Shown here: positions 1,112 to 20,841 of the stretch, piece by piece
How positions within the stretch are numbered: the stretch's first letter is position 1
Layout: the number at the start of each line of letters is the position of its first letter
DNA from: an uncultured Clostridia bacterium
GTDB lineage: Bacteria; Bacillota; Clostridia; Oscillospirales; Oscillospiraceae
DNA: 38,613 nucleotides
Assembly: GCA_947164825.1 (NCBI GenBank)
Contig: CAMUYE010000010.1
Coordinates: 1 to 38,613, forward strand
Direction: 5' to 3'
Made by a program: the position numbers and the translations under genes
Notes under the pieces: generated by a model
Database searches by the model: none
Seen by the model: the letters and a program-made list of their open reading frames with translations, nothing else
What the model was told of the DNA's origin: nothing

Positions 1112-4100
1112 TCAAAAATGCCGTACCCACGCGGTGAGCAGAAGGGTCGGAACCAGCCAGGCGGCTGCGTAGAGCAGGAGGTTCAGCGCCGTGGCGGTCT
1201 CATAAGCGGCCATCGCCGCCAAAACGCCCATCAGCACCAGCCCAGTCAATCCGCCCAGCACCGTGAGGATCGCGGCGCCGAGAGTCGCCGAACGGAGCAG
1301 GCGCCCGCCTGCGACAGCCTGGGCAAAGCCCGAGAAGCTGTTCTTTGCCAGGATGGCTCCCTGGGTCCCGGAGCGCTTCAGCTCCGCCTCGGACAGGCGG
1401 ATCCGCTCCTTGGTGGAGGGATAGGCAAACGCGCCGGTGGAGATGCCGAACTTGACCTTGAGGAAGCCCGGCGTGCCGAGGAAGGTCCGCGTGACCAGGA
1501 TGCCCTTGAAGTGCCGGTTTCCGGCGATGGCGGCCAGGCCCCGGCGCAGGTTCTCCGGCGGGTTGTAGCGCACGGCGAACACCGCGGCCAGCTCCCCGTT
1601 GAGCGACATATACACCGCCTGCTTGACCCGGGCGCCCCGGTCCATGTGGACGCCCATGCGGCGCATGAAGTCCAGAGAGCCCATGAGCACCACGTCCTGC
1701 TGGATGCTCGCGCCGATGCCGCCGCTGTCATAGAAGCGGAAGTTGTCCACCGTATAATGGCGGCCGTTGTGGGTGACCAGCAGATCCTCGAAGATCGGAT
1801 CCAGCGCGCTGCCGGAGCTGCGGCAGGCCGCCGCGGCGTAGGCGATCATTCGGTCCGGGTTGCCGTTGTAGACCTTAAAGCCGTTGAGGGTCAGGGATCC
1901 GGCGGGAAAGACGTCGTCGTCTCCAATAAGGATCGAATGCTCGCCGCCGAAAACCTCCGCCCCATGGTAGCCGCAGAGGGCCGCCTGGGCCTCCGCCAGA
2001 CGGCGGGCCAGCAGGCAGAACAGCCGGGGGAAGGCCAGCAGCCCCGTCACCGGGACGATCCCGAGGAAGACCAGCGCGCCGGTCCAGCAGAACTCGCGCT
2101 TCAGCACCAGGCTGATCGCCAGGGTCAGCACAAGGCCGACGGCCGCGGCCACCGGTGTGTAGATCCGCAGCAGGCGATCGGTCAGATCCCGGGTCTCCAG
2201 CTTTTCCATAAAGCGATCCACGTCGGGCTTTGTGCGGATCAGGCCGCGGCTGCCCTTGGTGATGTCCTGGACCTCGCCGACGCCGGTGGAGAGCTGCTCC
2301 GCCCGCAGGACCTTGACCGTGGTGGTCAGCGCCAGGCCCCGGTCGTACTGGCCCCAGAGGGCAACCAGCAGGATCCCGCCGACGACCACTGTGAAGGGCG
2401 GCCGCAGCGTTTTGGCCGCGGAGATGCAGTCAAGGGCGGTGAAAATCGTCGCAAGGCCGATCAGCAGGCCGGGCCGCAGGCCGGCTTCGTCCCGCCAATC
2501 CCGGAAATAGAGCTTCCGGTTCACCAGGACCATCAGGCCCAGCAGGGCCAGCATGATATAGACCGTGGTTCCGCCGGAGAAGATCTCGGGCAGGAAGGTC
2601 CAGCGCTGGGAAAGGTACAGTGTAAAGAACAGGCTGAGCAGAGAGAACAGGCCGGTCAGGATCAGCCTGGATCCGATGGAGTCCAGGGGCTTGGCGTAGA
2701 CCCGGTAGGCCTCGTCCGGATGGAGGATACTCTTCTCCTCAGGAGGGAGGACGTCGATCTCCTGGTGTTCCCGGTGCTTGGGCTGCTTGTCGGCAGCTTC
2801 CGCCCGGATGTCCGCGGAGGGAACGGGTTCCCGTTCGGCTGCCCGCTTTTCTGTCTGGCGGGGGGCTTTGGCCGGAGCGGGAAGGGGCTCCCGTTCGGCT
2901 GCCCGCTTTTCCGTCTGGCGGGGGGCTTTGGCCGGGGCGGGAAGGGGCTCCCGTTCGGCTGCCCGCTTTTCCGTCTGGCGGGGGGCTTTGGCCGGAGCGG
3001 GAAGGGGCTCCCGTTCGGCTGCCCGTTTTTCCGTCTGGCGGGGGGCTTTGGCCGGGGCGGACGCTTGATCCGCGGAAGCCGCTCCCAACGCGGCCCCCAT
3101 CACAGCCCCGCCCAGCGCTTCCGCCTCGGACGCGAGGACTGCGGCGCCTTCCAGACCGGATCCGGTCAGACTTCCGGCGCTGCCTGCGCCTGTTTTCGCG
3201 CCGCGGACAAACGCGCCTCCCCGGGACGACTTCCGGTCCTGCGCCTTGCGCCGCCATCCGAACAGGGAAACTATTTTTTTCTGCTTTCCGGCCGGCGGCT
3301 CCTGCTCGATGTGCTCCGAGCTCCGGGCTCCGGCTTCGGGCTCTTGCTCTGTGGGGCCCACGCTCTGCGCCCAGGCTCCGGGCCGGCGTTCCCCGGGTTC
3401 CGTTCCCGGATCCCCGGCTTCCGTTTTCCCCTCCGTCTCGTCGTCTGACCAGGTCAGGATCAGTCCGGCGGGGTTTTCCGGGGCGGTGGAAATGGTCTGC
3501 GGATTCGTGGCGCCGAAGCTGAGGGTCTGCTCTCGGAGATTCCCCCGCCGGTTCTCGGCGGCGGGTTCCGCTTCGGCGTCGGGCTTTGCCTCCATGGGAA
3601 CCGCAGCCGCCAGGAAATCCTCCAGGGTCAGGGCGTCGCTCCCGACGCGGGGGCTTGGCCGGGAAGAACCGTCGGACTCTGAACGCTCATTCAGATCCAT
3701 GGGGACCGTCTCCGGCTCCTGATCCGGCAGAAGGTTCGTCTCGGGCAGCTCCTCCAGGGGAGGCTTCTCATCAATCGGCGGAAGCGCGGGCCACTCAGGT
3801 TCCTCGGGTTCCTGCGTCTCCGGGACGCCTTCTGGCAGGGAGCCCAGGACTTCCAGCTCCGGTTCGGCAGCCGGGGCAGGCGTCTCCTCCTGGGCCGGCG
3901 CGGGACGCCGGGCGCGGAGGTATTCCTCCCAGGTGGGCAGTTCGCTGTCCTCCGCCTGGCTGCCGAACAGCGCAAGCGGGTCCCAATCGTCGGCAGGCGC
4001 GTTTTCCTCGACCGTCGGCATATCCCCAGACGGGAGATCCGTGCCTGCCTCTGCGTGATCGGAGCGATCTGCTCCGGGCGTCCTCGCAGGTACCGTCTCT

Positions 4101-6166
4101 ATGGCTTCGGGGGCCTCTGCCTCTGGCAGCTGGCCGAGAAGCGTCTCCGCGGCTTCGGGGGCCTCTGTCCCGGGCAGCTGGCCGAGAAGCGTCTCCGCGG
4201 CTTCGGGGGCCTCTGCCTCTGGCAGCTGGCCGAGAAGCGTCTCCGCGGCTTCGGGGGCCTCTGTCTCGGGCAGCTGGCCGAGAAGCGTCTCCGCGGCTTC
4301 GGGGGCCTCTGTCTCGGGCAGATGGTCGATAAAGCTCTCTATGGTGTCGGCGCTGACTGTCTCAGCCGGGCTGTCGGGCTGCGCAGCCGCGGGATCCTCC
4401 GGTTCCGGCGCATCGGTCCGGCGGGTCGGGGCGCCGCCAAACAGACTGCTCAGCCAGCTCCGCTTTTTCCTGCGCCGGGCAGGAGTGGCCGCAGCCTGCG
4501 CCGCTTTCCGGCCGGTTTCCCGCTCGGAACCGAAGAGCTCTTCCAGGCTGGGCAGCGTCCCGGTGGTATTCCGGGAGAGCGGCGTCAGCGGCAAGGGCTC
4601 GTCATCCATCGGCTCGCTGAAAAGCGAAAGCGGATCCCAAAGCTCCGGCACATGGTCCGTCTCGTCGGGCGCTTCTTCAGGCGTTTCCGTCTCGGACTGG
4701 CGTGTGGCCGCCGGACTCGCGGGCTCCGGCGTCGCGCCGGTCAGTTCCGGCTCCGGTTCGGAATGCACTGTATCCTCACTGCCGGGCTCCGGCGTCTTAT
4801 TTTCTGTTTCCTCTCGGTCGGGCTCCGGCGTCGCGCCGGTCGTCTCCGGCTCCGGTACGGAATGCTCCGTTTCCTCGCTGCCGGGCTCCGTTGATTCGCC
4901 GGTCAGCTCCGGCTCCGTGGTCAAGGTTTCCGGTTCCTCGCTGCCGGGCTCCGGCGTCTCGCTGCTGCGGGGCAGGCCGAAGTAATCGAACAGCTCGGGT
5001 ACGCTCAAGGCGTCGAGCTCCCGGCGGGAAGAGACGGAGGCGGGGCTTTGGTTCGGTTCCGCCGGGGCGGCGGAAACCGGCTCCTCCGACTCCCGGGCGG
5101 ACGGGGCCTGAGGCGCTTGATCGGGCTGTTCCCGGGAGGCGTCGGCAGCCGTTTCGTTCCGGGCGTCAAAGTCCGCAAAGATCGGCCGCTCCAGCAGCGC
5201 GTCCACGGCGGCGTAGAGCTGCGCATCCGTCCACGGATCGTCGGGCCCGGCCAGATCCCGGACCGCTTCGGAGCCAGGATCGGGAGTTCCGGGTTTCCCA
5301 TGCGCCGGGATCGCAGAGGCAGCGACGGCGGCAGGGGCGTCGATGGCAGCCGCCTCAGACGGGCGATCATCAAGGAATGACTCTGCGGCATTGACTGCTT
5401 CCCGCGGATCCTGAACCTTTTCGTCCGCAGGAGAAGCGGTGGTCAGCGGCGCGGCGTTGTCGGGCCGGTTGTTCCTGCCGAACAGTCTGCTCAGCCAGCC
5501 GCGCTTCCCGGGGACAGAGCGCTCCGGCGTCACCTGCTCCGATTGCCGGGTCTCCGGCGCAGCGGACAGTTCGGCGTCAGGCGCTTCCGGCGCTTCGGCA
5601 GCCGGTTCAGCGGCCGGTTCGATCGCCGCTTCGACAGCCGGTTCGGCGGGCGGTTCGATCGCCGCTTCGACAGCCTGTTCGATCGCCGCCTCGACAGCCG
5701 ATCCGGCGGCCGGTTCTTCCGTCGCCTCGGCAGCCGGCCCGCCAGTCGATTCCTCCCTCAGAGGCGCTTCGGCGGGCCGGGGGGCGGTACCGCGGGCGGA
5801 GTCCCCCGCTCTGCGGGTCCTGGCGGAGCGCTGCGGGGTGCGGCCGCGGCGGGTCGGGGAATCGTCGGAATGCGGCGGCGCAGTCCGGATCCCCAGCGGG
5901 CCGAACAGCTCTTCCAGAGAGGGATCCTCCTCCTGCGGCGCTTCAAAGGGAGTCGCGCTGAACCCCCGCAGCGAAACGAGGGTCGGATCCCGGTTCGGCG
6001 CAGAGTCCCGCTGCTCCGCCTCTTCGCCGAGCTCCGCACGGAACATGGCGGCCAGGTGGGTGGAAAACTCCTTTGTATCACCCTGCCGTTCGGCATTACG
6101 GGCCGCGGAACGCCCCTCCCGGGAGGTGCGCTGCGCCAGGTTGTCTGATTGCTCGCGCTTATTCAT
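1112..6166 (-). CDS. Giant repeat-rich membrane protein with degenerate P-type ATPase-like C-terminus
   Basis: This 1684-residue protein starts at the ATG at 6166, 11 nt after GGAG; a GTG at 6178 touches the Shine-Dalgarno and is less likely. Residues 1 to about 1150 are low-complexity, acidic and rich in Pro, Glu and Ala, with 16-residue repeats (about 608-688), 20-residue repeats (about 1035-1115) and recurring short motifs such as SLEELFG and WLSxLFG. Residues 1160-1684 have membrane segments and a layout like P1B-type ATPases: two paired-helix blocks, a large soluble part, then two C-terminal helices. Where P-type ATPases have DKTGTLT, this has VFPAGSLTLNG near residue 1415, and the TGD and GDGxND motifs are not recognisable. 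The phosphorylated Asp is therefore absent, so it is probably a non-pumping pseudoenzyme. The P-type relationship is my inference from the pattern; the function is unknown. It lies 67 nt downstream of rlmB. Confidence 0.75.
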   Translation of the reverse strand: MNKREQSDNLAQRTSREGRSAARNAERQGDTKEFSTHLAAMFRAELGEEAEQRDSAPNRDPTLVSLRGFSATPFEAPQEEDPSLEELFGPLGIRTAPPHSDDSPTRRGRTPQRSARTRRAGDSARGTAPRPAEAPLREESTGGPAAEATEEPAAGSAVEAAIEQAVEAAIEPPAEPAVEAAIEPAAEPAAEAPEAPDAELSAAPETRQSEQVTPERSVPGKRGWLSRLFGRNNRPDNAAPLTTASPADEKVQDPREAVNAAESFLDDRPSEAAAIDAPAAVAASAIPAHGKPGTPDPGSEAVRDLAGPDDPWTDAQLYAAVDALLERPIFADFDARNETAADASREQPDQAPQAPSARESEEPVSAAPAEPNQSPASVSSRRELDALSVPELFDYFGLPRSSETPEPGSEEPETLTTEPELTGESTEPGSEETEHSVPEPETTGATPEPDREETENKTPEPGSEDTVHSEPEPELTGATPEPASPAATRQSETETPEEAPDETDHVPELWDPLSLFSEPMDDEPLPLTPLSRNTTGTLPSLEELFGSERETGRKAAQAAATPARRRKKRSWLSSLFGGAPTRRTDAPEPEDPAAAQPDSPAETVSADTIESFIDHLPETEAPEAAETLLGQLPETEAPEAAETLLGQLPEAEAPEAAETLLGQLPGTEAPEAAETLLGQLPEAEAPEAIETVPARTPGADRSDHAEAGTDLPSGDMPTVEENAPADDWDPLALFGSQAEDSELPTWEEYLRARRPAPAQEETPAPAAEPELEVLGSLPEGVPETQEPEEPEWPALPPIDEKPPLEELPETNLLPDQEPETVPMDLNERSESDGSSRPSPRVGSDALTLEDFLAAAVPMEAKPDAEAEPAAENRRGNLREQTLSFGATNPQTISTAPENPAGLILTWSDDETEGKTEAGDPGTEPGERRPGAWAQSVGPTEQEPEAGARSSEHIEQEPPAGKQKKIVSLFGWRRKAQDRKSSRGGAFVRGAKTGAGSAGSLTGSGLEGAAVLASEAEALGGAVMGAALGAASADQASAPAKAPRQTEKRAAEREPLPAPAKAPRQTEKRAAEREPLPAPAKAPRQTEKRAAEREPLPAPAKAPRQTEKRAAEREPVPSADIRAEAADKQPKHREHQEIDVLPPEEKSILHPDEAYRVYAKPLDSIGSRLILTGLFSLLSLFFTLYLSQRWTFLPEIFSGGTTVYIMLALLGLMVLVNRKLYFRDWRDEAGLRPGLLIGLATIFTALDCISAAKTLRPPFTVVVGGILLVALWGQYDRGLALTTTVKVLRAEQLSTGVGEVQDITKGSRGLIRTKPDVDRFMEKLETRDLTDRLLRIYTPVAAAVGLVLTLAISLVLKREFCWTGALVFLGIVPVTGLLAFPRLFCLLARRLAEAQAALCGYHGAEVFGGEHSILIGDDDVFPAGSLTLNGFKVYNGNPDRMIAYAAAACRSSGSALDPIFEDLLVTHNGRHYTVDNFRFYDSGGIGASIQQDVVLMGSLDFMRRMGVHMDRGARVKQAVYMSLNGELAAVFAVRYNPPENLRRGLAAIAGNRHFKGILVTRTFLGTPGFLKVKFGISTGAFAYPSTKERIRLSEAELKRSGTQGAILAKNSFSGFAQAVAGGRLLRSATLGAAILTVLGGLTGLVLMGVLAAMAAYETATALNLLLYAAAWLVPTLLLTAWVRHF
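2821..3060 (-). repeat. 60-bp tandem repeat, four copies, inside the giant membrane protein gene
   Basis: Four contiguous 60-bp units differ at only a few positions. They encode four copies of a 20-residue unit containing APAKAPRQTEKRAAEREPLP, a basic segment in the otherwise acidic linker just before the membrane domain. Confidence 0.95.
4103..4342 (-). repeat. 48-bp tandem repeat, five copies, inside the giant membrane protein gene
   Basis: Units begin at 4103, 4151, 4199, 4247 and 4295; the last is diverged. Each encodes a 16-residue unit such as ETLLGQLPEAEAPEAA. The copies differ mostly by single bases, which points to recent slippage or unequal recombination. Confidence 0.93.
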
Positions 6167-6200
6167 AGTCAAACGCACTCCATACTAAAACTATCGATCA

Positions 6201-6233: not shown

Positions 6234-7085
6234 TCAGCCTCGCTTTGCCTCCCGCTGGCGCAGCGCCTCATAGAGCATAACGGCGGCGGAGGCCGAGGCG
6301 TTCAGGGAGGAGATCTGCCCCTTCATGGGGATGCTTACCAGCACGTCACAGCGCTCCCGGACCAGGCGGCTCATGCCGTCTCCCTCGTTGCCGATGACAA
6401 TGGCCGCGGGGCCGGTCAGATCCGTGCGGTAGAGGACGCTGTCGGCGTCGGCGGCAGTGCCGTAGACCCAGACACCCTTCTCCTGGAGTTCGCGGATGGT
6501 ATTGGGGATATTGGCGACTCTGGCCACCGGAAGGTATTCCAGCGCTCCGGCGGAGCTCTTGGCTACCACGGCGGTCAGGCCCACGCCCCGGCGCTTGGGA
6601 ATGACGATCCCATGGGCGCCGGCGCACTCGGCGGTACGGAGGATCGCGCCCAGGTTATGGGGATCGGTGAGCTCGTCGCAGATCACGATCAGCGGCGCCT
6701 CGCCCCGCTGGGCGGCTCGCTCCAGGATGTCCTCCACGGAAGCGTATTCGTGGGCGGCCACGGCGGCAATGACGCCCTGGTGCGCCCCGGTGGGGCTCAT
6801 CTGATCCAGTTTGCGCCGGTCGGTGGGGACGATCACGGCTCCGGCTTCCTTGGCCAGGGCGGCCAGGCGGGCCAGGGAGCGGTCGGTGCTGCCCTCGGCC
6901 ACATAGAGCTTGTCGATGGTTCTGCCGCTCTTGAGGGCCTCGGTCAGGGCGTTGCGTCCCTCGATCAAGCCCTCGGAGAGCTCCTCGGGCCGCTCGCCGC
7001 GGTTTTCGGTGCTCCGCCGCTCCTTCCAGTCCGGGCTCCGGGCAGGTTTTTTCCGTTCGATTTTTTCGTTTTTCTCGTTTTTCAT
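6234..7085 (-). CDS. rlmB: 23S rRNA (guanosine-2'-O)-methyltransferase RlmB, SpoU/TrmH family
   Basis: This 283-residue protein belongs to the SPOUT methyltransferases that 2'-O-methylate rRNA with S-adenosylmethionine; RlmB modifies G2251 of the 23S P-loop. The N-terminal substrate-binding domain begins near IEGRNALTEAL, about residue 46. The trefoil-knot domain shows the three family motifs: DPHNLGAILRTAE, IVIGNEGDGM and IPMKGQISSLNASAS, the last two building the SAM pocket. The first 35 residues are a charged, Lys/Arg-rich extension. I chose ATG 7085; a GTG at 7100 would add five residues and is not excluded, since no strong Shine-Dalgarno is visible for either. It has its own promoter at 7121-7149. 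TrmH-type tRNA methyltransferase is an alternative, but the N-terminal domain favours RlmB. Confidence 0.9.
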   Translation of the reverse strand: MKNEKNEKIERKKPARSPDWKERRSTENRGERPEELSEGLIEGRNALTEALKSGRTIDKLYVAEGSTDRSLARLAALAKEAGAVIVPTDRRKLDQMSPTGAHQGVIAAVAAHEYASVEDILERAAQRGEAPLIVICDELTDPHNLGAILRTAECAGAHGIVIPKRRGVGLTAVVAKSSAGALEYLPVARVANIPNTIRELQEKGVWVYGTAADADSVLYRTDLTGPAAIVIGNEGDGMSRLVRERCDVLVSIPMKGQISSLNASASAAVMLYEALRQREAKRG

Positions 7086-7120
7086 AGCAGATAGGCACAC
7101 TTTCTCACAATATCTAGTGT

Positions 7121-8483: not shown

Positions 8484-8512
8484 ATCATACTCAAAAGCGG
8501 CGGAAAAGTCAA
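8484..8512 (-). promoter_or_regulatory. Promoter of the YibE/F gene
   Basis: TTGACT (8507-8512), 17 nt, TATGAT (8484-8489) on the minus strand: a near-consensus sigma-A promoter. Confidence 0.8.
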
Positions 8513-11494: not shown

Positions 11495-11558
11495 CGCTTT
11501 CGCGCCGATCCGGGCGCAATTTCAATCGGTTTTGATCAAACGTGAAGGAGGTATCCGT

Positions 11559-13040
11559 ATGGGTACGTTTAACGGCAGCGCGAAAGGCGGCGCTTTTTCC
11601 ACAGCCTCTCGCTCCAATCGAACACAAAAAGGCGCAGGCCTGCAGATCCTGTTCTCCCTGCTCCTGTTGGCGGATCTGTTTCTGCTCTACACCATCATCA
11701 TGCAGATGACCCATCTGCAAAAGGCCTTCGAGGCCTCCGACACGGTCAATCTGATTCTGCTGATCGTTCTGGCCATCGGCGCGGTGGCCCTGATCTACGC
11801 GGTGATTCGCAGCGGAGCCTGGAAACGGGCCCTCTGCATCCTGCTGATTTGTTCCGTGCTCTATCTGGCGGTCGTCTATTCCGATATCCCGCTGATCAAG
11901 AACGCCCGGGAAACCTGGATCACCACGGCCATGGCCACCATGCGGCATCAGGGTCTCGCCACCTACTACTTCCCGTCCTCTGTCATAGAGAAGCGGACGG
12001 AAGAATTGCGGGAGGCGCTGAATGCCCAGATCGGCGAGATTACGCCGGAGGACGCCTTCACCGTCGAGGCCAGCGATCAGGTCTGGATCACGGGCATGGA
12101 GACCGACACCCGCTGGGCCGCGCCTGCGGAGGTCATCGAAGAGCTGACGCCCGAGCAGCAGGCTTTCTATCTGCTGTTCTATGAGCTGGATATCGACAGC
12201 TGCGAAGCCTGGATCAAAACCCATCCCGACGCCTTGACAGACGGCTACGCGCATCTGCTGATCAACGAGGCGGGTCTGGAGAAGAACGGCACCACCATCC
12301 GCACCAAGCTGGGAGAGAAGGTCCTCGCCGTTGATGCGGACAACCAGATCCTCGTGGTGGAGACAGACTGCGGCGGCGCCCGGGGCGTGCTGGCCATCGC
12401 CAAACAGCCTGCCCGGCTCCATCTCTGTGCCACCGCCAATCTCCCCTACCACGGCGACACCGTGGGAACCATTGCCAGCCGCAACAACGGCGTGCTTGCC
12501 ATGACGGGCTCCAGCTTCATCGACGTGAACGCCGAAGGCGAAGCCGGCAAGGGCAACGGCGGCATGATCGCCGGCTGGGCCATGTGCGGCGGCAAAACCT
12601 ACGGCGAGCACTTCGGCTGGGGCTACAAGCGTCTGGAGCTCCGGGACGACGACTGGTTCTACATCGCAGACGCCCCGGCGGCTGTGGGTAAGGGAACCAC
12701 CGACGCCATGGAATTCCAGCCCGCCATGGTCATCAACGGCGTGAAACAGAACGTGGGCTACTGGACCGACAAGAATCCCCGGGCCTGCATCGGCCAGTCC
12801 AAACGCGGCGAGATCCTGATGCTCGGGGTGGAAGGCCGCGGCGCCGGCGGATCCTGGGGCTGTTCTGTCTCCAATTGCAGCGACGTTCTGCTGACCCACG
12901 ACTGCATCACCGCCCTGAACTGCGACGGCGGCACCACCGCGATCCTGTGGTATCGGGGCGAGCCCATCCTGCGCTGTTCCAACAGCGCCATTCCCCAGGG
13001 CCGCCGCCTGCCCACCGCCTGGGTCTACGTGAGCGAATAA
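11559..13040 (+). CDS. Membrane-anchored phosphodiester glycosidase (NAGPA) domain protein
   Basis: The start is the ATG at 11559, preceded by AAGGAGG; an in-frame TTG at 11532 precedes that site and is rejected. The 493 residues begin with a Ser/Gly-rich cytoplasmic stretch, then three membrane helices (about 28-48, 63-82, 91-108), which should put the rest outside the cell. The C-terminal part, about residues 275-493, resembles the NAGPA family (PF09992), with NGGMIAGWAMCGG, the GVEGRG strand and the signature ALNCDGGTTAILWYRGEP, where the family consensus is NLDGGGSS. NAGPA domains cleave phosphodiester-linked sugars, or act on exopolysaccharide in bacteria. The substrate here is unknown, but wall or capsule polymer is plausible. 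It lies 64 nt after mnmA and 78 nt before the lipoprotein gene. Confidence 0.8.
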   Translation: MGTFNGSAKGGAFSTASRSNRTQKGAGLQILFSLLLLADLFLLYTIIMQMTHLQKAFEASDTVNLILLIVLAIGAVALIYAVIRSGAWKRALCILLICSVLYLAVVYSDIPLIKNARETWITTAMATMRHQGLATYYFPSSVIEKRTEELREALNAQIGEITPEDAFTVEASDQVWITGMETDTRWAAPAEVIEELTPEQQAFYLLFYELDIDSCEAWIKTHPDALTDGYAHLLINEAGLEKNGTTIRTKLGEKVLAVDADNQILVVETDCGGARGVLAIAKQPARLHLCATANLPYHGDTVGTIASRNNGVLAMTGSSFIDVNAEGEAGKGNGGMIAGWAMCGGKTYGEHFGWGYKRLELRDDDWFYIADAPAAVGKGTTDAMEFQPAMVINGVKQNVGYWTDKNPRACIGQSKRGEILMLGVEGRGAGGSWGCSVSNCSDVLLTHDCITALNCDGGTTAILWYRGEPILRCSNSAIPQGRRLPTAWVYVSE

Positions 13041-14742: not shown

Positions 14743-17700
14743 TTATTCGGCGGGCTGGACGTAGAGCTGGAAGATGTAGTTGGCGTTGTCCTTCCAGCCG
14801 TAGGTGGTGAAGCCGTTGTAGTATTCCAGCGCCTGGTTCTTGTTGCCTTCCTGATAGGCGGCGTTGGTGCTGCGGATGAAGACGGTCTTGGCGTCGGCGT
14901 CCTTGACCTGGAGATACCAGAGGCTGTACTCGTTGGGGTTGTCCTCAAAGCTCATGCTGTTGCCGGTGGCCCCGGTGGTGAGATACTTGCCATTGGCCAT
15001 CTTCAGATAGAAGTTGGTGGTATCGCCCTCGGGGTACTCCACGGTGTAGACCGCCACGCCCGCTGCGGGCTCCAGCATGCCCTCCACGGGCGTCACGGCG
15101 ACCTCGCCAACCTTATTCCCGTTCAGGCTGTCCGCCAGGGCCAGTCCCTTGTTCGGGAAGTAGATGATGACCTGATCGTTGGCGGCCAGCGTCGTAGCGG
15201 CGGCGAAGCCGTCGGTGGGGATGATCTCCAGGCCGTCCAGGGCGGTGCGGAGGGCGTTGAGAGCCTCGGTGACCATGCGCTGATCCTTGTCGGGATTCGC
15301 CATGACGGCCTGGGCAGCGGTCAGAGCCTCGTCCAGAGCGGCCAGGGAGGCCTCGGTGTAGAGGCTGCGGTCGATGGCCTGGGCTTCGGCGATGGCGGCT
15401 TCGAGCTCAGTGGTGTCCAGCTCGGGGGCCCAGATCAGCAGCTCGTCTCTGGAGCGCACGCGCAGACGCTTGATGAAGAGGCTGGGATCGATGTCGTCGC
15501 CGATCTGGCCGTCGGCGCCGCCGCTGGCCTCGTCCACGTCGCGGGAGCCGATGCCCACGCCCTCGATGTTCATGCCCACTTCAATGCCGTCCAAAGCGTG
15601 GGATTCCTTCTGAATGTAGCCGTTGATGAAGAGCATGGCCTGCTCGCCGGAGCCGTCGTCCACATAAATCATATCCACCACGCCGGCGGTCTCATGGATC
15701 TCGGTGATGACGCCGGTGACCTTCATCAGATTGCCGATGTTGTCGTCGCTCATGGCCTCGGCACAGGTGACGGTCTTGGGCTCCACGGGGGTCAGGTCGT
15801 TGGAGATGACCTTGATGGAGCCGTTGTAGTCCGTGGACAGGTTCAGCTCGATCTCGCCGCAGTAGTAGGTCACGCCGCCGTGGGCCCGGACCTTCTCACC
15901 GATGAAGTAGTAGCCGGAGACGGGGAAGGCGTTGATGCCCCGGGTCTCGTCCTGGATGTAGATGCAGTCGAAGAAGGCGGTGTCCTTGTCGTAGTCGGAG
16001 GCGTTGGAGGTGACGATGCCCTCGATGGTGAACTCCTGACCAACCTCGCCCCGGTGGACCTGGGCGATGGGCGTAACCTCGCCGTCAAATTCGCCGTCCT
16101 TGATGAAGTCCAGGATGTTGCAGACCAGCAGGTAGTTCTCGTACTGCTCGTTGGCGGGATCGCCGTACTTCAGGTCGTAGTTGGAGATGAAGGTGGCGCC
16201 GGAGCAGACCAGGTAGCCGCCGCCGGGAAGCTTTTCCGCCGTCGCCAGGGAGAAGCCGCTGCCCATCTCCGCCATGACCATGTCGTTGTCGTAGTCGGGC
16301 ACGTAGGAGGAACCGTCGAAGTTGGCCTTGTAGTTGGCGACCCAGGTGGTGTCGTAGGGGGAGATCAGGGAGACCACGGCCATATCGCCCTTGGGCAGCT
16401 CCATGCCGTTCTTCTCTGTGAAGTTCTTGAGGATCAGAGCGACCTGGGCGCGGGTGGCGGACTCTCTGGGCTGGAGGTAAGCCGTTCCGTTCACGTCCAC
16501 GCCGCTGATCAGGCCCTCGGCCACAGCCCACTGGATGCCGTCCACGGCCCAGCCATGGACCCGGTCGGCGTCGGGATAGGCGGAAATGTCGGCCCGGGCG
16601 CTGACGTCGATGCCGTTGAGCATGGCGAACTTCATGAGGAAGAGGGCCATTTCCTCGCGGGTAACGGGGCTCTTGCGGTCAAAGGTGCCCTCGCCCTTGC
16701 CGGCGGTGATCTCGTTTTCGAAGGCCCAGAGGACGGCCTTGTAGGACCAGTTGCTCTCCTTCACGTCGTTGAAGGGGTTGGTGATGGTGGGCTCGGGGGA
16801 GCCGGAGGCTCTCCAGAGGATCTGGACGAACATTTCCCGGGTCAGCGGGGAGTTGGGCTCGAAGGTGGTGGTGCTGATGCCGCTCATGAGGCCGTAATCC
16901 AGGGCAAAGTCCACGGCGGCGTGATACCACTTGTTCCGGTTGACGTCGGTGAAGCGGAGGCAGGGATCATGGGTGATGCCGGTGCCGTTGTACCACTGGT
17001 AGCGGCCGTTGGAGGAGGGATAGATGCCCTCGGTGAAGAGGTGATCGCCGATCAGCTCCCGGCCGTCGAAGTAGATGCGGTAGGCCTCGTTGGCCTTCTT
17101 GTCGTTGTCCACCACGATGCCGCGGATGAAGCGGGTCTGGGCGCCCACGGCCTCGTTGACCAGGTTGGAGAGGTTGGCAGAGGAATAGTAGTTCTCGTAG
17201 GGAGCGTCCGCGGGATCGTCGGGATCGTAGCGGTCGGACTTGGAGAAGCTCAGGATGGTGCCGCCGTTGGCCGCGTAATCGGCCAGGGCCTCCAGCTCCT
17301 CGGCGGTCCAGACGGCGGGCAGGCCGTCGCCCTTGACTCTGGGTACGGTGATCAGCACCGCCTTGAAGCGGGCCAGGTTCTCCTTGGTCATCTCGCCCTT
17401 GTCGATGTATTTGCAGAGGATGCCCCGCTGGGCGCAGATGTCGATGAAGTTGCCCTCGTTGCCGGCATAGTCGCCGGAGACGTAGAAGTTGTCATGGCCC
17501 TTGTCCAGACCGATGTAGGTCATCATTTCGGGGGGATAGGAGGTCTCGGTGATGGTCTTGGTGTAGACGAGCTCCTTGCCCTTGAAGATCACGTTGAAGG
17601 TGACGGTGATCTCATAGGTCTTGACGGCGGCGGGCTCGGTGGTGGAGGGGGTGAAGGGGATATTGATCTCCTCCGTCTCGCCGGGCTCCACAACGCCCTC

Positions 17701-20700
17701 GAGCCCGGTCATGTCGGTCAGCACCCGCCCCTCGGCCTCGATCTTGCAGCCGTGGAGATAGAGGGGCTCGGTCTCGGAGCCGTTGGTCAGGCTGGCGGTG
17801 ACGGTCTCCTCCTCGCCCTGGGCAGCCACGGCCACGGAGGTCTCCAGGTCGGCGGCCACGGGAACGGCCTCCTTGACCCAGACGGGGGCGGTCACGGCGA
17901 TGTCGCCGTCAGCCTCCACGATCCGGACGTAGTAGTAGCCGTCGGTGTTGGGGATGGTCAGCGCGTCTTCGTAGGCGTTGGCGTTGACTTCGACCTTCTT
18001 CAGGGTCTTGCCGCCCTCGCCGATGATCTCCACGGTGGCGATCTTGTCGGTGCGGTCGGGATCCTCCACGTTCACCTTGACGGTGACGGTCTCGGGCTGA
18101 TCGTCCTCCTCGAAGGGAGCAATGTCGCCCAGCTTGAAGGTCTGCTCGGCAGCTTCCAGCTCGTAGGAGATCCGGAGGTTCTGGTCCTCGGTGGAGTAGA
18201 CCCGGCGGGCGTCCAGAGCCCGGTAGAGGCCAATCTCGGAGAAGTCGTCGGTCAGGATGACGTCGCGGCAGGTGTTGGAGTCGCCCCAGTTGCCCTTGTG
18301 GTTATCCTGGTTGTTGGTGGGGGCCACGTGCCAGCCCATGGACAGGCAGAGGTCGTACTCGCTGTAGGAGGGGAAGTAGGCGGAGCCGCCCACCTTGCCC
18401 TCGCCGTTGCCCACCTCGATAAGGTTCAGCACGTCGTCGCGCTTGGCGGAATAGCCGGCGTAGTTGTCAAAGTTGCCGAAGGTCTTGCCGGGGTGGTTGA
18501 ACTGGGAGATGACGGGAACGGGATTGCCTTCCTCGTCGAAGGGGATGTTCTTGGTGGCGTTGACGCCGGTGACCTCCGCGCCGTTCCGGGTGGTCTTGGC
18601 CTCGGTGCCGTCGATGGCCAGACCCTTTTCGGCGTTGACCATCATATCGTTGTAGAGGTGCATGCCGGCGTAGCCGGTCTTGTTGTTGAGGTCCTTGTTG
18701 TTTCTGGAGACCACGCCGTAGGTGTTGAAGGTGTTGGTGTGGCCGGGGCCGCCGGACCAGGTCATCTCGTAGCCGTAGACGCAGAGGAAGTCGTCGTAGC
18801 GCTCGTTATACTCCTTGGCGGTGGCGCGGGCCTCCTCCCACTTGGTGGTGGTACCGGCGGCGTTTTTCAGCAGGGAGCTCAGGTCGTAGTAGCTGGAGGT
18901 GGTGGCGGTGGAGGTGGTATCGAAGTAGTTGGAGTGGTCGGTGATAATGATGAAGTCCAGATCGGCCACGCCCTGGGCGTGCTCATAGGCGTCCTCCAGG
19001 GTGCCGACGCCGTCGGAGTATTCGGCGGTGTGGGCGTGGATCTGACCGAAGTACAGGGTCTCGCCGCCCTCGCCGATGAAGAAGTTCCAGCTCTTGGTGA
19101 CGGATTTTCCGTCGGCCCGGGTGATGGTGACGGAGACGCTGTGCTTGCCGTCCTCCATGTCCGCCGCGGGCGTGTAGGAATACTTGTCGCCGGAAACCGT
19201 GCCGGTGGCGGTCTCGCCGTCCAGCAGCATGGAGAAGCTGGGGTTGGTTTTGACGTTGGCGAAGGTGACGCCGATCTCGGGCCGCTTCTCCTCGCCGGTG
19301 GCGGAGTTGGCGGCGGGGAAGGTCGTCAGGATCAGGGGCTCGTCCCGGATATCCACGGTAACCACGGCGTCGTAGCTCTTGCCCAGCGCGTCGGTGACGG
19401 CGACCTTGACCGTCAGCTTCCTTCCGCCCTCCAGGGCAGCCATGGGGACGGTGAAGCTGCCCTTGCGGACCTCCAGGCTGTGCTCGGCGGTGACGAAGCT
19501 GCCGCTGTCCACCTTGTAGGAGGCGGTGACGGTCGTGGGCTCGCTGACGTCGCGGATCTCAAACTCCACCGGGCAGTCGGAGCCGATGGCGGGATCGGGA
19601 GTCTTGAGCTCCACCTCGGGGTTCACCACGTAGCCGGTGCCGTCCCTGTCCTCCATGGGGTAGAAGTTCATGGCGAAGAGCTCCACGCTCTCGGCCTTAA
19701 AGGTCCAGCCGCTGAACACGTCGTTGAAGAACTCGATGCTGCAGTAGTAGTTGCCGTATTTCGCGGCCTTGTTCTTGATCTCGTAGCCGCCGGTGCGCTC
19801 CACCAGCGTCCACTGGGCGTAGCCCTGCTTCTCTGCGTCGGCGGGCCAATCGATCATCAGCAGGGTCTCGTCGTTGTTGACCTTGCCGTTTTCGTCCACG
19901 GTGTTCTCGGGCATGGCCAGATACTTGCCGTTGTTCTCAAAGGAGAAGACCGGATTGGCCTCGGTGCCGCTGACGTGGACTGTGAAGATCATGCCGCCGT
20001 CGGCAATGTCCTCATAGGCCAGGGTGCCGTCCTCGGCCAGGGTCGCGGAGGCGGCCAGCAGAGCGGGTGCGGAGACGTCCTCGCCGGTGGGCTGGCCCAT
20101 GACGGCCCTGGCGTTGTGGTTGTAGACCACGTAAGTGCCGCCGTCCTCGGGCAGGCCGCCGGCCACAAAGGGCTCGCCGACCCGTCCGTCCTCGTCGGCG
20201 GAGGTGGCATAGAATTTGAACTGGTAGAGACTGGCGGAGGAGGCCTTATAGCTCCAGGGCTTGATGGCCCCTTTGTAGACCTCCAGATAGACCGGGCCGC
20301 CGTTGTACTGGAAGCCGACGTTCTTGATGTTGTAGTACCCGGCCGCTCCGGCCTGGTCGGTCACGAAGGTCCATTTTGCGTAGCCGTTCTCACCGATCTC
20401 GTCTGTGAGGATCAGCTCCTCGCTGTCGTTCAGGGCAAGATACTGGCCGCCAAGCTGCAGGATATAGTCCGAACCGGTCTTGACGAACTTGACGACAGCG
20501 GTCCCGTTGGGCAGACTCGGAATGCTGACGCCGTCCGAGGAGACTGTCGCGGTCTTGGCCGGCGCGCTGCCTCCGTTTACGTCCGCGCCGACGAGATAGC
20601 CGTCGACATTGTAGATGACGCCGTAGGCGCCGTCTTCGGGCAGGCCGTTGATCAGAGTCGCGGTCTCGCCTTCCTCGGTGGCAAAGCTCAGCACCGGGAA

Positions 20701-20763
20701 CACGGACAGGACCATGACCAGGGCCAGCAGCAGCGCCAGCGCCTTTGAGAAGTGCTTTTTCAT
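14743..20763 (-). CDS. Giant secreted PHP-type metallohydrolase with SLH repeats (CehA/McbA-like)
   Basis: The 2006-residue protein starts at ATG 20763 with AAAAGGAGG at ideal spacing. It has a signal peptide (residues 1 to about 29, ending LSFA). Two related beta-rich modules (about 15-390) precede Ig-like regions. A PHP domain spans about 570-860, with HAH (about 576-578), ITDHSN, NHPGKTF and DNHKGNW as probable metal ligands and RVYSTEDQN at its end. After Ig-like linkers comes a GATase/DUF4350-like fold (about 1081-1265), then three SLH repeats (about 1266-1454, for example FTDVNRNKWYHAAVDFA). OB-like modules (about 1564-1774), a FIVAR-like helical repeat (about 1781-1851) and a C-terminal module similar to the N-terminal ones follow. 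PHP domains of this group are metal-dependent phosphoesterases; the substrate is unknown. SLH repeats would attach it to wall polymers. Confidence 0.85.
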   Translation of the reverse strand: MKKHFSKALALLLALVMVLSVFPVLSFATEEGETATLINGLPEDGAYGVIYNVDGYLVGADVNGGSAPAKTATVSSDGVSIPSLPNGTAVVKFVKTGSDYILQLGGQYLALNDSEELILTDEIGENGYAKWTFVTDQAGAAGYYNIKNVGFQYNGGPVYLEVYKGAIKPWSYKASSASLYQFKFYATSADEDGRVGEPFVAGGLPEDGGTYVVYNHNARAVMGQPTGEDVSAPALLAASATLAEDGTLAYEDIADGGMIFTVHVSGTEANPVFSFENNGKYLAMPENTVDENGKVNNDETLLMIDWPADAEKQGYAQWTLVERTGGYEIKNKAAKYGNYYCSIEFFNDVFSGWTFKAESVELFAMNFYPMEDRDGTGYVVNPEVELKTPDPAIGSDCPVEFEIRDVSEPTTVTASYKVDSGSFVTAEHSLEVRKGSFTVPMAALEGGRKLTVKVAVTDALGKSYDAVVTVDIRDEPLILTTFPAANSATGEEKRPEIGVTFANVKTNPSFSMLLDGETATGTVSGDKYSYTPAADMEDGKHSVSVTITRADGKSVTKSWNFFIGEGGETLYFGQIHAHTAEYSDGVGTLEDAYEHAQGVADLDFIIITDHSNYFDTTSTATTSSYYDLSSLLKNAAGTTTKWEEARATAKEYNERYDDFLCVYGYEMTWSGGPGHTNTFNTYGVVSRNNKDLNNKTGYAGMHLYNDMMVNAEKGLAIDGTEAKTTRNGAEVTGVNATKNIPFDEEGNPVPVISQFNHPGKTFGNFDNYAGYSAKRDDVLNLIEVGNGEGKVGGSAYFPSYSEYDLCLSMGWHVAPTNNQDNHKGNWGDSNTCRDVILTDDFSEIGLYRALDARRVYSTEDQNLRISYELEAAEQTFKLGDIAPFEEDDQPETVTVKVNVEDPDRTDKIATVEIIGEGGKTLKKVEVNANAYEDALTIPNTDGYYYVRIVEADGDIAVTAPVWVKEAVPVAADLETSVAVAAQGEEETVTASLTNGSETEPLYLHGCKIEAEGRVLTDMTGLEGVVEPGETEEINIPFTPSTTEPAAVKTYEITVTFNVIFKGKELVYTKTITETSYPPEMMTYIGLDKGHDNFYVSGDYAGNEGNFIDICAQRGILCKYIDKGEMTKENLARFKAVLITVPRVKGDGLPAVWTAEELEALADYAANGGTILSFSKSDRYDPDDPADAPYENYYSSANLSNLVNEAVGAQTRFIRGIVVDNDKKANEAYRIYFDGRELIGDHLFTEGIYPSSNGRYQWYNGTGITHDPCLRFTDVNRNKWYHAAVDFALDYGLMSGISTTTFEPNSPLTREMFVQILWRASGSPEPTITNPFNDVKESNWSYKAVLWAFENEITAGKGEGTFDRKSPVTREEMALFLMKFAMLNGIDVSARADISAYPDADRVHGWAVDGIQWAVAEGLISGVDVNGTAYLQPRESATRAQVALILKNFTEKNGMELPKGDMAVVSLISPYDTTWVANYKANFDGSSYVPDYDNDMVMAEMGSGFSLATAEKLPGGGYLVCSGATFISNYDLKYGDPANEQYENYLLVCNILDFIKDGEFDGEVTPIAQVHRGEVGQEFTIEGIVTSNASDYDKDTAFFDCIYIQDETRGINAFPVSGYYFIGEKVRAHGGVTYYCGEIELNLSTDYNGSIKVISNDLTPVEPKTVTCAEAMSDDNIGNLMKVTGVITEIHETAGVVDMIYVDDGSGEQAMLFINGYIQKESHALDGIEVGMNIEGVGIGSRDVDEASGGADGQIGDDIDPSLFIKRLRVRSRDELLIWAPELDTTELEAAIAEAQAIDRSLYTEASLAALDEALTAAQAVMANPDKDQRMVTEALNALRTALDGLEIIPTDGFAAATTLAANDQVIIYFPNKGLALADSLNGNKVGEVAVTPVEGMLEPAAGVAVYTVEYPEGDTTNFYLKMANGKYLTTGATGNSMSFEDNPNEYSLWYLQVKDADAKTVFIRSTNAAYQEGNKNQALEYYNGFTTYGWKDNANYIFQLYVQPAE

Positions 20764-20841
20764 TGCGTTTCCTCCTTTTGATTTATACAGACAGACCGCG
20801 CCGCCCGGAAGAGGCGCGGCACTCCCCATAATGACACTTGT

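Follow-up and report, generated by a model that had tools for sequence, protein, structure and literature searches.

Catalytically dead enzymes are known for many folds. Among P-type ATPases, the nearest analogue of the protein family described here is human TMEM94 (ERMA), which has A-, P- and N-like domains and is reported to lack TGES and to show no detected ATPase activity (PMC12134183). Another paper contradicts this and calls TMEM94 an active Mg2+ ATPase (PMC13322241). TMEM94 is unlike the family in being eukaryotic, having ten helices, possessing an A-like domain and keeping its own D417. A P-type part is also tied to another role in Plasmodium guanylyl cyclase alpha, which carries an appended P4-ATPase domain (PMC7858053); this protein differs in its P4 class, its cyclase fusion and its eukaryotic origin. 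In the open-access literature, the scope of our search, we found no bacterial P-type ATPase described as nearly order-wide, single-copy and non-catalytic.

Here we report that a gene in a 38,613-nucleotide stretch of an uncultured Clostridia bacterium (contig CAMUYE010000010.1; hereafter the window) almost certainly belongs to a lineage of P1B-type (heavy-metal) P-type ATPases without pump chemistry, a "dead pump". With the P1B-type ATPases CopA, ATP7B, HMA4 and ZntA, this pseudo-P1B family shares an eight-helix membrane part, an N-domain fold, the order of the N and P insertions and a partial P-domain fold. In contrast to them, it lacks the aligned phosphorylated aspartate (8 of 149 members excepted), KTGT, TGE, SxHP, CPC and, within the P domain, the segment bearing GDGxND; its A domain is nearly gone.

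The whole open reading frame, as given in the ORF list, encodes 1688 residues (1112..6178, minus strand), and all peptides quoted in the original prediction lie within it. An ATG at 6166, four codons inside the frame and preceded by GGAG, looks like a better start than the listed one. Same-genus members with uncut frames have open frames of 1171–1806 aa. Profile searches, profile alignment and structure prediction delimit a C-terminal pseudo-P1B ATPase domain of 541 aa (1115..2737, minus strand), whose residue numbering is used below; the preceding N-terminal tail, 1147 aa in the listed frame (2738..6178, minus strand), has a high content of Ala, Glu and Pro together with tandem repeats. Just upstream lies rlmB (6234..7100, minus strand; TIGR00186 above cut-off and locus comparison), and downstream an EF-G-like GTPase gene truncated by the contig end (2..1021, minus strand; PF00009). 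Two promoter-like sites are present on the minus strand, one at 8484–8512 (10/12 matches) ahead of a YibE/F gene and one at 1030–1058 (11/12 matches) between the pseudo-P1B and EF-G-like genes, suggesting a single putative transcript yibE/F–rlmB–pseudo-P1B gene. Elsewhere, the window encodes a 2028-aa protein (14743–20829, minus strand) that contains three S-layer homology stretches and gives further weak matches, FIVAR among them, and a phosphodiester glycosidase (NAGPA, PF09992) with helices at its N-terminus (11532–13040, plus strand). Searching the window protein against Pfam and NCBIfam gave no match to the domain; since these curated libraries miss it, the domain is probably annotated as hypothetical in many genomes.

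A phmmer search of the PDB with the single window sequence found nothing useful. With a profile of relatives, 17 of the 19 sequences listed at E ≤ 10 were P1B pumps; six pumps fell below an E of 0.001, the strongest at 9.1e-12. A maximum-likelihood tree (96 sequences, 467 columns) placed the family together with support of 0.991 and separate from the P1B pumps, although the long branches call for caution. The structure model agrees with the profile matches, with predicted P1B-like N and P domains, the latter fold only partial, and a membrane part whose eight long helices are arranged as in P1B pumps (MA, MB, M1–M6), interrupted by two cytosolic insertions. The P-type ATPase origin proposed originally is thus upheld: the two outcomes named beforehand as fatal to it, a model without P-, A- or N-like folds or profile searches without a P-type hit, did not occur.

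For the structural comparison, matches were taken from the best 1000 chains of Foldseek and compared a second time, and the P1B helix names were assigned by comparison with them; the long matches to P1B ATPases have 11–16% identity. In the model, MA (7–44) and MB (57–82, broken at 73) occupy 2492..2719, M1 (89–107) and M2 (116–145) 2303..2473, M3 (185–211) and M4 (216–249) 1991..2185, the last pair placed also by profile alignment, and M5 (468–508) and M6 (517–540) 1118..1336, all on the minus strand. The P1B membrane arrangement foreseen in the original prediction therefore stands, with eight long helices instead of the six it counted. An actuator-like loop had also been proposed; a remnant does sit at that place, but it consists of just one two-strand hairpin (151–169; 2231..2287, minus strand) without TGE, leaving almost no A domain. 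The N-domain-like fold (281–392; 1562..1897, minus strand) is defined by structural match and member alignment; residues 280–392 superpose on the CopA N domain (2voy) with an rmsd of 2.0 over 109 residues at 20% identity. Two glycines in it, Gly340 and Gly353, are present in 149/149 members; they presumably correspond to glycines that line the nucleotide site in P1B pumps, so weak nucleotide binding may be possible.

M4 is still broken where pumps carry CPC (228–229), the window sequence there being VPV. Retention of all eight helices and of this break at the pump's ion site would suit passive transport, as a channel or facilitator. We consider this reading very unlikely, because the metal-binding CPC is gone and a CPx-like string occurs in only 12/149 members at any place in the last 650 residues, against 30/31 P1B controls.

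To survey the catalytic motifs, we gathered 160 members, kept 149 after dropping those identical over the last 500 residues, and counted motif strings at any place in the last 650 residues. DKTG was found in 0/149 members and in all 31 control P1B pumps, which had been chosen for having DKTGT. Likewise, GDGxND was found in 0/149 members versus 31/31 controls, the corresponding segment being missing ahead of M5, and SxHP in 0/149 versus 30/31. GDG (8/149 versus 31/31), TGD (11/149 versus 30/31) and TGE[SP] (1/149, in L014, versus 30/31) were rare, the last two counted wherever the string fell. Consistent with the original prediction, DKTGT, TGD and GDGxND are all missing from the window's ORF. 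An active pump was rejected, as catalytic motifs are missing across the members.

The prediction had also read the former DKTGT site as VFPAGS. Profile and multiple alignment instead place G-D-D-D-V-F-P opposite D-K-T-G-T-L-T, and with the structure model they put Gly272 (1922..1924, minus strand), directly after the predicted strand 267–271, at the position of the phosphorylated aspartate. Among the 149 members this residue is T in 57, S in 27, K in 17, G in 15, R in 10, D in 8, E in 6 and N in 3, with others in the remainder. The eight with Asp lack KTGT and all belong to the 20 distant members. Taken together, the motif counts and residue tally indicate that the whole DKTG site has been lost in every member examined, with a bare Asp lingering in some early-diverging ones. 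On sequence and model evidence, the family would qualify as a pseudo-P-type ATPase: a P-type fold without catalytic residues, encoded by a conserved gene.

Immediately after Gly272, member alignment reveals a conserved D-x-D-[LIV]-F-P (273–278; 1904..1921, minus strand), with D273 kept in 140/149 and D275 in 138/149 members. We considered whether its first Asp is the retained phosphorylated residue and rejected this: both alignments put that Asp one residue later, the predicted strand ends before Gly272, and the eight distant members already carry D at 272. An R-D-F-N motif is conserved as well and, like D-x-D-[LIV]-F-P, is weaker in distant families. D418 is kept in 131/149 members; in the window protein it is Thr, within TRTFL (416–420; 1478..1492, minus strand), which aligns near TGD. 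These residues could represent an undescribed activity. If the two motifs had come to form a novel site for catalysis or ligand binding, for example with HAD-like phosphatase chemistry or metal binding, the persistence of the three aspartates would be explained. Such a site nevertheless appears unlikely, given that GDGxND is absent throughout, D273 and D275 drop to 12/20 and 9/20 in distant families, and D418 is lost in 17/18 members of the window's own genus. HAD phosphatases are recognized by a motif I Asp ending strand 1 and an acidic motif IV; here Gly272 takes the place of the Asp and the motif IV segment is missing.

The domain was detected at E ≤ 0.001 in 46/59 related genomes. With a 76-row profile, 171/197 genomes of the order matched at E ≤ 1e-20, covering 103/116 genera, and only one of the 197 (G388) had two matches, on two contigs. 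Members also occur in the culturable relatives Sporobacter termitidis (L140) and Papillibacter cinnamivorans (L135). We followed 20 of the 26 genomes without a match and recovered the rlmB locus in 16; the ORF right behind rlmB matched the family in 13 of these (E of 1.4e-6 or better) and at 9e-4 in one, with no match in two. At E ≤ 1e-10, 72 of 291 genomes of the class matched. Twelve of these belong to the order, with E values no higher than 1.9e-29; the remaining 60 lie outside it, reach 1.1e-15 at best and, by the look of their frames, probably represent ordinary P-type ATPases. In 76/80 close loci and 20/20 distant ones, rlmB lies just upstream on the same strand, and the contig end truncates the four close loci that remain; the EF-G-like gene follows in 72/80 close loci but in just 3/20 distant ones. 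Thus, the family is a near-universal, single-copy gene of its order that adjoins rlmB. It is under purifying selection, with dN/dS (NG86, domain) of 0.076–0.256 in sequence pairs from the same genus (n = 7). In this region, high GC content yields lengthy open frames by chance on either strand, which speaks for a decaying pseudogene or mechanical ORF without function; this explanation is refuted by the low dN/dS of these seven pairs (0.08–0.26) and by presence in 171/197 genomes.

Although the engine parts are gone, most members of the order retain one copy next to an unchanging neighbour gene, most likely because the fold has taken on a role other than pumping. Dead relatives of enzymes often regulate live ones, so the protein might regulate a genuine P1B pump in the same cell as its subunit, paired through membrane helices. 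A complete P1B pump is indeed encoded elsewhere in the genome (G000:C2, TIGR01525, 544.9 bits), and one scores above cut-off in 38/39 relatives. We regard this role as improbable, because the gene adjoins rlmB and, in close relatives, the EF-G-like gene, with no pump gene beside it, and to our knowledge P1B pumps do not generally need such a partner.

The tail offers another clue. In the window's genus it is much lengthened by tandem repeats (4 × 60 nt, 4.7 × 48 nt and others), with periods of 60, 48, 63 and 36 nt. In close relatives it is unconserved apart from a motif near its start, e.g. YSLESILAEYK, at a median position of 16. This motif scored at least 8 bits in 67/80 close members, 41 of the 80 having trained the model, versus 0/80 shuffled tails; 5/20 distant members reached the same score. 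Applied to the window's own tail, the motif model found nothing above zero bits. Pattern matching gave three degenerate copies there, SLEELF (5903..5920), a second SLEELF (4532..4549) and TLEDFL (3611..3628), all on the minus strand, compared with a mean of 0.004 in 1000 shuffles for a pattern picked after looking. Members of family f10 are tail-less (frames of 541–554 aa; L183, G352:C14, 545 aa), indicating that some members can do without it.

When 120 family genomes were searched, 77 contained the motif at E ≤ 0.01. From the matches in frames resembling other proteins, 20 were chosen for inspection. LspA accounted for 17, with the motif at most three residues from the C-terminus; two more were pseudo-P1B members cut by contig ends, and in the last (L300) LspA is at the locus with masked bases between. 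In some genera, the C-terminus of LspA (signal peptidase II) is extended by a long disordered stretch that finishes with the tail motif (L298, L302–L317; L200, L211). Among LspA genes sampled irrespective of the motif, 5/57 carry it, and a search for strict co-occurrence of the motif in LspA and the pseudo-P1B protein came up empty. Its sharing by the two tails in some relatives suggests one partner for both.

Another motif match led to a 629-aa protein with FNKTGT (genome G354; L222:7535-9424, G354:C9). Its relatives (L226–L254; E ≤ 1e-50) occur in 29/34 genomes of genus g215 and 0/65 others searched. Like the pseudo-P1B family, this second dead family has a P1B fold by sequence, a replaced phosphorylated Asp (Asn 24, Ser 4, Asp 1; n = 29) and no GDGxND (0/29). 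It differs in retaining KTGT-like, SxHP, TGD (29/29) and DK motifs and in clustering with genuine P1B pumps in the tree, a placement that makes its loss look independent. The tail motif is visible by eye in 18/29.

We favour, with somewhat better than even confidence, a membrane-anchored scaffold or receptor as the role of the pseudo-P1B protein. Transport would have been lost, the helices would serve as a membrane anchor, the disordered cytosolic tail may expose motifs on which a soluble partner docks, and the stripped-down N/P head may act as a binding or ligand-sensing module. Counting against a scaffold or receptor are the possible activity of D-x-D and R-D-F-N, the tail-less f10 members, the motif's low frequency in distant members and in LspA, and the sub-zero score of the window's tail. 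Tentatively, and with more doubt than conviction, Oscillospirales-type bacteria may possess a membrane docking system, with a retired copper-pump fold as the main receptor and a SLEDILAEF-like motif, found also at the LspA end and in the second, separately retired P1B pump, recruiting one cytosolic hub. If the dead-pump assignment is true, the family would allow the abilities of a P-type fold in the absence of phosphorylation to be tested in nature, and the common tail motif would give a direct handle on the partner of the pseudo-P1B protein.
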